This document shows positions 4,875 to 12,148 of a stretch of 57,097 bases of DNA, one piece after another. Where the stretch lies: assembly GCA_001784585.1 (NCBI GenBank), contig MFRN01000016.1:1-57097 (forward strand), written 5' to 3'. Position 1 is the first letter of the stretch, and every line of letters begins with the position of its first letter. Below the pieces are notes generated by a model. It was not told where the DNA came from and made no database searches. It worked only from the letters and a program-made list of their open reading frames with translations. A program made the position numbers and the translations under genes. This stretch comes from Candidatus Melainabacteria bacterium RIFCSPLOWO2_02_FULL_35_15. Lineage in GTDB: Bacteria > Cyanobacteriota > Vampirovibrionia > 2-02-FULL-35-15.

Positions 4875-5564
4875 ATGACAGACAGACTGAAAAATAAACT
4901 TATTGTCTCAGTTCAGGCTCAGGGGAATGAGCCTTTGAATAAACCTGAATATTTACTTGCAATGAGCCAGTCAGTTATTAATGGCGGGGCAGGTGCACTC
5001 AGGCTCTGTGGCATTGATAATATAAAACACATAAAAAAAAATGTTTCAGTGCCGGTTATCGGACTTACAAAACTTGAACCTACACCGATTAACTGGCTGG
5101 ACAAGGTTTACATAACAGCTACTTTAAAAGATTTAAAAGAGCTTCTTAAAACAGGGATTGAGTTTATTGCTATAGACGGGACAAACAGAAAAAGAGAAGA
5201 TGACTCATCTCTTAAGGATCAGATAAGTCTCATAAAAGAAGAGGGGAGAAGTATTATCGCAGATGTATCAACTTTCGAAGAAGGGATATATGCCAGTGAA
5301 CTTGGTGCTGACATTATTTCTACTACTCTAAGCGGCTATACAAAAGAAACCAGATACAAAGCCAATAACGGACCGGATTTTGAACTCTTAAGTGAGCTTA
5401 CTGAAGAAATCTCAACGCCTGTAATTTTAGAAGGAAGAATTTGGGAATTAGAAGATGTTAAAGAAGCTTTTAAGATTGGAGCACATGCGGTGGTAATTGG
5501 TACTGCAATTACAAGACCACAGATAATTACAAAAAGATTTATTACTTCATTGCCACACAATTAA
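4875..5564 (+). CDS. nanE: N-acetylmannosamine-6-phosphate 2-epimerase
   Basis: This TIM-barrel protein converts ManNAc-6-phosphate to GlcNAc-6-phosphate, a step of sialic-acid and amino-sugar use. Starting at the ATG at 4875 gives 229 aa, the usual NanE length. A TTG at 4851 would add eight residues with no family match. Landmarks are LIVSVQAQGNEPL near the N-terminus, VIGLTKLEP with the catalytic lysine at residue 66, IADVSTFEEG, TTLSGYT, VILEGRI (acidic partner Glu186) and the phosphate-binding GAHAVVIGTAITRP. It is divergent from the NagB-like gene, with a shared 26-bp intergenic region. Its TAA stop lies inside the 7-bp target duplication of the mobile element that follows. No transporter, kinase or lyase of sialic acid is nearby, so the substrate source is unclear. 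Confidence 0.9.
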   Translation: MTDRLKNKLIVSVQAQGNEPLNKPEYLLAMSQSVINGGAGALRLCGIDNIKHIKKNVSVPVIGLTKLEPTPINWLDKVYITATLKDLKELLKTGIEFIAIDGTNRKREDDSSLKDQISLIKEEGRSIIADVSTFEEGIYASELGADIISTTLSGYTKETRYKANNGPDFELLSELTEEISTPVILEGRIWELEDVKEAFKIGAHAVVIGTAITRPQIITKRFITSLPHN

Positions 5565-5565
5565 C

Positions 5566-5602
5566 TGTAATAGTCTAGATTTGATTTGACAGACAGTGTA
5601 AG
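5566..5602 (+). repeat. Left terminal inverted repeat of element 1
   Basis: About 37 bp beginning TGTAATAGTCTAGATTT. It pairs, with roughly three quarters identity by eye, with the reverse complement of 5875-5911 and matches the left end of element 2 (11498 onward). Confidence 0.75.
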
Positions 5603-5644
5603 TGTTGCGAGGAGCGTTAGCGACGAGCAACTTAATTTTGATTT

Positions 5645-5683
5645 TGTCTTTGCGAGGAGGAACGAAGTGACGACGCGGCAATC
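5645..5683 (+). repeat. REP-like palindromic unit in element 1
   Basis: The unit has outer arms TTGCGAGG and GCAATCT around a variable GC-rich middle. A related unit lies at 5604-5631 (arms GTTGC/GCAAC) and another, in inverted orientation, at 5751-5785 (arms AGATTGCTTC and CTCGCAATGACA). This TCATTGCGA...GCAATCT pattern is a dispersed repeat type known from many bacteria. Confidence 0.7.
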
Positions 5684-5874
5684 TTACACCCAAGTAAATG
5701 TGAATAAGGGTCGCTGTAGGGTTTCGGTATTATACGATATATGCCGTATGAGATTGCTTCGGGTTAAAGCCCCCTCGCAATGACAATTTTGGATTGAATT
5801 GCTCATCCACCTTCGGTGGACTCGCAATTTATATAAAGCAATCGCAATAACAAATCCATAAGGTTATACATAAG

Positions 5875-5911
5875 CTTACAGTGTCCGTAAAGTTAAATCT
5901 AAACTTTTACA
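5875..5911 (-). repeat. Right terminal inverted repeat of element 1
   Basis: About 37 bp whose reverse complement begins TGTAAAAGTTTAGATTT. The same right end occurs in element 2, ending at 12100. The direct repeat AATTAAC follows immediately. Confidence 0.75.
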
Positions 5912-5924
5912 AATTAACCTATTA

Positions 5925-10967: not shown

Positions 10968-11495
10968 ATGAGAAAAAGCATAATTTTAACTTTGTTTCTA
11001 ATGTGTCTTTTAAGCAGGACTCAAGCAGGAGATATTCAAAAGAGCGGGATTTGTTGTGAAGTGTTTAATGAACGCCTTGAGATAAAATCAAGAGCTTTTT
11101 GTTTAACAGTAGGAGGAAAGGAAATTCCTTTTGAACAATGCCTTATAGCAAATAAAAAGATCTGCTGTAAAGATCAAAATAACGATGTTCACTATGAAGT
11201 CAGGCAGCAGTGTGAAAGACTTGGATTAGAGGCAGTTAGTATGAAAAGTTGTGAAAGAAATTTAAAAATAATATGTTGTGAAACTGCAGACAGAGAGGTT
11301 AAAAAAATTAATTTCCAGAATTGTCGTAGAGCTGGCGGAATTGAAATTGACAGCAAGATATGTAAGTTCAAAAAAGAAAAAGATGATGATTTTGAAATAT
11401 GCTGTGCATATCCTGAAGGGACATATGGTATAGAAACCAATGAGGGTTGTAAATTGTTAAAAGGAATAATGGTAAATAAATCAAAATGCAAATAA
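10968..11495 (+). CDS. Secreted cysteine-rich protein with four CC-x14-C-x12-C repeats
   Basis: The 175-aa product begins with a signal peptide (MRKSIILTLFLMCLLSRTQA, probable cleavage before GD). The rest is four tandem units with exactly the same spacing: two adjacent cysteines, 14 residues, a cysteine, 12 residues, a cysteine. The units start at the ICC pairs and are joined by linkers of 7, 7 and 12 residues. Sixteen mature cysteines could form eight disulfides or bind metal. The units differ in sequence, so this is an old repeat rather than a recent duplication. I know no family with this spacing. It lies 16 bp after the SprT-like gene and may share its transcript. Its TAA stop sits inside the direct repeat flanking mobile element 2. 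Confidence 0.8.
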   Translation: MRKSIILTLFLMCLLSRTQAGDIQKSGICCEVFNERLEIKSRAFCLTVGGKEIPFEQCLIANKKICCKDQNNDVHYEVRQQCERLGLEAVSMKSCERNLKIICCETADREVKKINFQNCRRAGGIEIDSKICKFKKEKDDDFEICCAYPEGTYGIETNEGCKLLKGIMVNKSKCK

Positions 11496-11579
11496 GATAT
11501 AAAAATCTAGATTTGATCAGACAGACAGTGTCCGTGTTGCGAGTCCGCTTGAGGCGGACGAGCAACATCACATCAATTT

Positions 11580-11615
11580 TGTCATTGCGAAGGTCTGCAA
11601 GACCTGAAGCAATCT
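11580..11615 (+). repeat. REP-like palindromic unit in element 2
   Basis: The unit has outer arms TGTCATTGCGA and GAAGCAATCT and a perfect inner hairpin AGGTCT-GCA-AGACCT. The neighbouring unit at 11536-11566 has outer arms GTTGC/GCAAC around GTCCGC-TTGAG-GCGGAC. The corresponding units in element 1 keep the outer arms but have different inner stems. Confidence 0.75.
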
Positions 11616-11646
11616 TACACCAAAGTAAATGTAAATAAGGCCGCTT

Positions 11647-11952
11647 TTATAAATCTGACTTTTTACATTTCAAATATAAATCTTCCATATCTTTATTCAT
11701 TGATTCTATAAGTTCAAGCTTTTTCTTTCTTGAACCCCCTTTTATTTGTTTTTCTCTAGCAATAGCTAAATTAATATCTCTGAAAATTTCATAGTAAAGA
11801 AGGTCTTTAATATTATATTTAGAAGTAAATCCTTTTGTTAAATTATTTCTATGTTCATTAACTCTTTTTGTTAAGTCATTTGTAACACCTGTATAAAATA
11901 CAGTTCGAGATTGATTTGAAAGGATATAGATAAAGTAACGATATTCTTCCAT
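11647..11952 (-). CDS. GIY-YIG nuclease family protein, cargo of mobile element 2
   Basis: The 101-aa single-domain protein starts with the GIY-YIG core written here as FIYILSN...FYTGVTNDLTKRVNEHR, followed by KYNIKDLLYYEIFRDINLAIAREKQIKGGSRKKKLELI. This is the YhbQ-like (COG2827) type that is multicopy in many bacteria. The catalytic Tyr, Arg (KRVNEH) and Glu (AREKQIKG) positions look intact. The gene lies wholly inside the inverted-repeat element and nearly fills the segment that element 1 lacks. It may act in movement or maintenance of the element, or may be passive cargo; the sequence cannot decide. No transposase is in either element. Confidence 0.88.
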   Translation of the reverse strand: MEEYRYFIYILSNQSRTVFYTGVTNDLTKRVNEHRNNLTKGFTSKYNIKDLLYYEIFRDINLAIAREKQIKGGSRKKKLELIESMNKDMEDLYLKCKKSDL

Positions 11953-12148
11953 ATGATATTGGTATTATACGATAGCTGCCATGTTAGATTGCTTCGGGTT
12001 AAAGCCCCCTCGCAATGACAATATTGCTCTTTGGTTGTTCGTCGCTATCGCTCCTCACAATCACTTACAACGTCTGTAAAGTTAAATCTAAACTTTTACA
12101 AATAAGTGTTCTGTTAAATCCTTGTAATTCTTGCTATATTCTTAATAT

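Follow-up and report, generated by a model that had tools for sequence, protein, structure and literature searches.

A probable composite at the nanE stop codon: an outer MITE-like element around REP-like palindromes that once enclosed a GIY-YIG nuclease gene

Several kinds of small mobile repeat are known from bacterial genomes. Bacterial MITEs such as RUP, Correia/NEMIS, Nezha and MITEAba12 (PMC2229807, PMC6382973) are short elements with inverted ends and a target duplication of fixed length, found in several copies near genes. The CGTC-tagged REPs, in which the tag is often TGTC, are present in many phyla, mostly as head-to-head dimers (Di Nocera et al. 2013, PMC3733652). They have a stem of 8-9 bp, a loop of 4-5 nt and a 3-nt tail that is mostly CCA, and apparently lack a dedicated transposase, no associated transposase gene having been found (PMC3733652). 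In Anabaena variabilis (GTAG-15) and H. neapolitanus (CGTC-1), REP dimers are nested in long palindromes (PMC3733652). REPINs are also inverted palindrome pairs, and their linked RAYT gene, flanked by the same palindromes, encodes an IS200/IS605-like HUH tyrosine transposase (PMC3116915).

Element A, the MITE-like unit studied here, occupies positions 5566-5911 (346 nt) of the window, the whole 57,097-nt stretch of DNA that was analysed. It resembles the bacterial MITEs in being short and non-coding, with inverted ends, a duplication of fixed length and several copies close to genes. The outer ends (5566-5602 on the forward strand, 5875-5911 on the reverse) are 37 bp long (TGTAAAAGTYTAGATTT...) and have the form TG...CA. 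They agree at 30 of 37 positions, and no other such pair, at a spacing of 100-700 bp, occurs in the 57-kb window. AATTAAC is present exactly on both sides, at 5559-5565 and 5912-5918 (both forward), confirming the inverted ends and perfect 7-bp duplication described in the first-pass annotation. In the reading frame of nanE (N-acetylmannosamine-6-phosphate epimerase, 4875-5564, forward strand), the left copy is AAT TAA C, and the TAA stop at 5562-5564 lies within the duplication. The gene had been described as left intact; its product matches Pfam NanE (E=1.6e-53). Since the duplication restores the stop, the gene survives the insertion.

The interior is made up of an outer hairpin on each side and an inverted pair between them. 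From left to right, an outer hairpin of the form GTTGCGAG-tip-GAGCAAC (5604-5631, forward) is followed by a TGTC-tagged palindrome with its tag outward (5645-5686, forward), a deletion scar (5687-5748), a second TGTC-tagged palindrome, also with the tag outward (5749-5785, reverse), and the right outer hairpin (5798-5828, reverse). The whole 346-nt strand folds far beyond shuffled sequences (z = -4.4). Taken singly, one of the four hairpins is significantly stable (5798-5828, z = -4.95); the others fall short of significance because the inner repeats are decayed or carry GA/GA mismatches. The earlier description of a chain of REP-like hairpins is thus borne out in layout, and in single-hairpin stability for one hairpin of four. 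A search against known RNA families returned nothing close to a gathering score for element A. Element A itself encodes no protein, as its 65-aa ORF is repeat sequence. The same does not hold for the family, in which a sister copy carries a GIY-YIG nuclease.

The inner palindromes resemble the CGTC/TGTC-tagged REP super-family. The TGTC/CGTC tag lies outside the stem, the stem (ATTGC/GCAAT) starts with AT, the units form head-to-head dimers, and the class is spread over many phyla. The tips, in contrast, are variable and often longer, with GA/GA mismatches, the tails are CTC/CTT in the window and CCAG in locus L170, and a GIY-YIG nuclease is associated with the repeats. Given the longer tips, we refrain from placing them fully within that super-family.

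The genome (1.94 Mb, 45 contigs, 98.95% complete) contains four two-ended copies, A and three more (B, C and D), plus one half copy. Copy B lies in the window at 11497-12099 (forward strand), has the same outer ends and is flanked by AAATAAG at 11490-11496 and 12100-12106, the left copy reading AAA TAA G at the stop of the ORF 10968-11495. Copy D (C38:36102-36412) lies between GATTAAG and GATTAAG. At their left junctions, B and D carry one or two additional bases (two in D). Copy C (C15:12943-13328) lies 14 bp beyond a stop and lacks a duplication; its left flank, AATTAGC, is similar to the AATTAAC of A. A, B and D therefore carry different perfect 7-bp duplications beside unrelated genes, and the homology among the copies ends at the element ends. 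Together with a further pair at C5:50383-50531, all four two-ended copies contain inverted palindromes with the tags outside, that is, head-to-head. The half copy of the outer element is at C35:80269-80303. In a slightly wider interval around it (C35:80264-80313, L017:1265-1314), the terminal TGA is the stop of a neighbouring methyltransferase-like ORF.

The typical MITE features can thus be recognized: inverted terminal repeats (30/37), a target duplication of fixed length (perfect 7-bp copies at A, B and D and on contig C184 of the relative G007, none at C), and dispersed copies without their own transposase (four two-ended copies and one half copy). The genome search proposed in the first-pass annotation yielded three further two-ended copies, two of them, B and D, also with perfect 7-bp duplications, and no relative was found with the same segment lacking the duplication, supporting the reading of the segment as a transposed, MITE-like unit. 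Differences from the described bacterial MITEs are that the coding sister has a nuclease and not a transposase, that the insertions overlap stop codons, and that no parental IS was found.

Copy B is the sole coding copy in the genome. It contains an intact gene for a 101-aa GIY-YIG endonuclease (11647-11952, reverse strand; Pfam PF01541, 53.5 bits) between inverted TGTC-tagged palindromes. The catalytic residues Y, Y, R and E are conserved in alignment: Y9, Y20 and E67 are invariant in the nuclease clade, and R30 is present in at least 90% of sequences. The nearest solved structures are the UPF0213 proteins 1zg2 and 1ywl. Copy D matches B at 94-96% identity on either side of a gap, and the 3' end of the nuclease gene survives in it on the reverse strand (...AAACCTGACTTTTTACAT...). 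Element A retains sequence from both flanks of the gene at the scar (5687-5748); its identity to B is 75% left of the gap and 87% (over 75 bp) right of it. Judged from these alignments, A and D are deletion derivatives of a gene-bearing unit like B. The inverted palindrome pair, and the fact that these palindromes also flank a linked gene, recall REPINs and RAYTs, but here that gene encodes a PF01541 GIY-YIG nuclease instead of an HUH tyrosine transposase.

The two layers of the element are found separately in relatives. The strict end pattern, with at most three mismatches, is absent from the other genomes of 382 in the class, while a looser pattern gives four matches at three places in G007, which belongs to a different genus of the same family; scattered single matches to the looser pattern in other genomes are probably due to chance. 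In G007, contig C184 carries an element of about 440 bp with the same outer ends and the duplication AGTTATT, around an unrelated interior without palindromes or nuclease. G006 shows the reverse arrangement, an inner unit without outer ends, in which inverted TTGTCATTGCGA... palindromes surround a GIY-YIG gene that shares 86% identity with the one in copy B. As each layer occurs without the other, the layers are independent and A is a composite, in agreement with the first-pass view that two repeat classes are combined here. Nesting as such is not new, because REP dimers inside a longer inverted repeat have already been reported in two species (PMC3733652). There, however, no outer palindrome free of REPs was found, whereas here the outer layer stands alone in a relative and is accompanied by target duplications.

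In nine relatives, nanE is not followed by the element. The host gene of copy D has the same NLD-TAA end, free of the element, in G001 of the same genus and in G004. In the relatives, the nanE stop and the site of copy D are thus element-free, and no exact empty site with both flanks alignable was found among these genomes. For A and B, the neighbouring genes differ in the relatives, so that the comparison shows no more than a nanE stop free of the element. A separate observation concerns the gene that follows copy B, which encodes a zinc-dependent dehydrogenase. In G003, a different genus, palindrome fragments and the decayed remains of a GIY-YIG gene are found upstream of this same dehydrogenase gene, in the other orientation (L295:1200-1450, reverse complement). 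It is possible that this region is an insertion hot spot.

We consider it likely that element A is a non-autonomous composite, in which an outer MITE that inserts on stop codons holds an inner REP-like pair that once enclosed a GIY-YIG gene. The outer layer, with its 37-bp TG...CA ends, would be moved by a transposase acting in trans, which cuts with a 7-bp stagger and prefers TAA-centred sites; the form of the ends and the length of the duplication suggest that this is probably a DDE transposase. The inner layer would consist of head-to-head TGTC-tagged, REP-like palindromes, once arranged around a GIY-YIG endonuclease gene, and would have entered the outer element or been co-assembled with it. 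Copy B would have kept the gene, and A and D would have lost it by internal deletion and would now move as one unit via the outer ends. As for the inner palindromes, the simplest reading of their association with the nuclease is that it may cut at them and spread them by repair or replication. Such a composite would illustrate how a gene-bearing palindromic unit collapses to a non-coding repeat and moves with the ends of another family.

All six readable insertion sites, from two genomes, overlap a stop codon. In this genome, the upstream gene contributes its in-frame TAA to the 7-mer, in the same phase each time, at A (nanE), B (ORF 10968-11495) and D (an aldehyde-dehydrogenase-like gene, with the 7-mer GAT TAA G). 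The three sites in G007 are AGT TAA T, closing a dephospho-CoA-kinase-like ORF (C139), AC TAA GG on the complementary strand (C65), and AA TAA CT on the complement, belonging to a convergent ORF (C184). The C139 and C65 sites were read from one flank each, as an IS interrupts the element at the contig end. Copy C, 14 bp past a stop and without duplication, falls outside the pattern. As a null, we used the stop-containing share of the 7-mers in the window at which insertion would be tolerated, which is 4.0%, or 8.0% of those with TAA/TTA; under the strictest motif, RAWTAAS, it is 4/17 (24%). The probability of six stops in six sites ranges from 4e-9 to 2e-4 under these nulls. Stop codons are the likely target of the outer element, in a sample that is small (six sites, two genomes).

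For the targeting claim only, survivorship combined with an AT preference offers another, rather unlikely, explanation: insertions within genes would have been lost, little intergenic space is available, and TAA-rich targets are commonest at gene ends. The AT-rich duplications, the coding share of the window (about 95%) and the low number of sites fit this account, but six out of six is improbable under the 4%, 8% and 24% nulls alike. If stop codons are indeed targeted, a MITE that duplicates its target stop would have a neat way of entering gene-dense genomes without gene breakage.

We also considered whether the nuclease of copy B could have moved the whole composite, including the outer ends. 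The ends would then be the outermost arms of one large palindrome, and the duplication would arise when a nuclease dimer makes staggered nicks that are then repaired. The nuclease gene of B, the sole coding copy, has its Y, R and E residues conserved, and no transposase partner was found, both in keeping with this account. It is nevertheless improbable, since in G007 the outer ends and a 7-bp duplication surround an interior with neither palindromes nor nuclease, nuclease units elsewhere occur without these ends, and the inspected borders of inner units show no duplications. Least probable by far is an origin without any transposition: the repeats would have been spread by recombination or segmental duplication, with flanking 7-mers that either match by chance or belong to the repeat itself. 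The missing duplication of copy C and the similar left flanks of A and C would suit this origin, but three copies have different perfect duplications beside unrelated genes, homology stops at the ends, and in relatives the same gene end is free of the element.

We also assessed 68 loci with relatives of this GIY-YIG nuclease, from Chloroflexota, Bacteroidota, Ignavibacteria, Cyanobacteria, Proteobacteria, Spirochaetes, Patescibacteria and other groups. The palindrome core lies at most 250 bp away on both sides of the nuclease gene in 53 loci and on at least one side in 64, as compared with 1 of 254 control windows from the same loci with the core on both sides. An inverted-repeat score of at least 18 between the flanks was obtained for 37% of loci and for 0/256 controls. 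Within the class to which the window belongs, the core is present on both sides in 18/47 loci of the nuclease clade and on at least one side in 34/47; the corresponding values for a second GIY-YIG clade of the same class are 0/20 and 2/20. The outward tags (n=70) are TGTC in 58 cases and CGTC in 10, together 68/70. The tips are highly diverse, with 85 distinct sequences in 120 hairpins, and retain self-complementarity; for the longer ones the mean folding energy is -5.0, compared to -2.2 for shuffled tips. Such wholesale divergence with conserved self-complementarity suggests that tips have been replaced or have undergone compensatory change.

More broadly, we propose tentatively, as a real possibility, that a single-domain GIY-YIG nuclease may be a dedicated mobiliser of CGTC/TGTC REPs across bacteria, captured here by a stop-codon-targeting MITE. 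If the nuclease reading is true, the inner palindromes would be a nuclease-driven counterpart of the RAYT/REPIN system, and the nuclease would be the enzyme missing in the description of these REPs (PMC3733652). Flanked by palindromes in most sampled loci and almost never in controls, it is a concrete enzyme to test for REPs. A literature search, with subscription journals mostly outside its reach, found no paper tying GIY-YIG proteins to bacterial REPs and no description of the repeat core as mobile. The nuclease association and the stop-codon targeting are, in our view, larger results than the confirmation of the composite and its MITE-like nature. At one locus in Sphingomonadales (L185), the GIY-YIG gene lies between nearly perfect inverted repeats, longer than 75 bp and composed of CGTC-tagged palindromes. 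This unit probably arose by recent copying and would serve well as an experimental model.

The search for the source of the outer ends gave no transposase with matching ends in this genome, where the end pattern matches these copies and chance sites only. MITEs typically, though not necessarily, share their ends with an autonomous parental transposon; no end-matching one was found in this assembly or in the 382 class genomes, and as the assemblies are fragmented a parent may be missed. Plasmids and phages gave no match to the element. Viral contigs contain 31 exact core matches, which were rejected as chance since the inverted partner has at least five mismatches and there is no further end similarity. 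An IS5-family transposase, fragments of which adjoin the ends in G007, was also rejected as the parent. Comparison of six IS borders shows that constant IS ends (GAGATGACTTC or nearly so) abut different repeats, and therefore the IS had inserted into the element. This IS5-like IS (C-terminus RWKVERTIAWLSNFRR..., border GAGATGACTTC) is found in both G007 and G003, repeatedly next to or within palindromic repeats, including the outer MITE, and at contig ends (L243:3200-3347, L242:1-145, L245, L246, L251, L252, L255 and L257).
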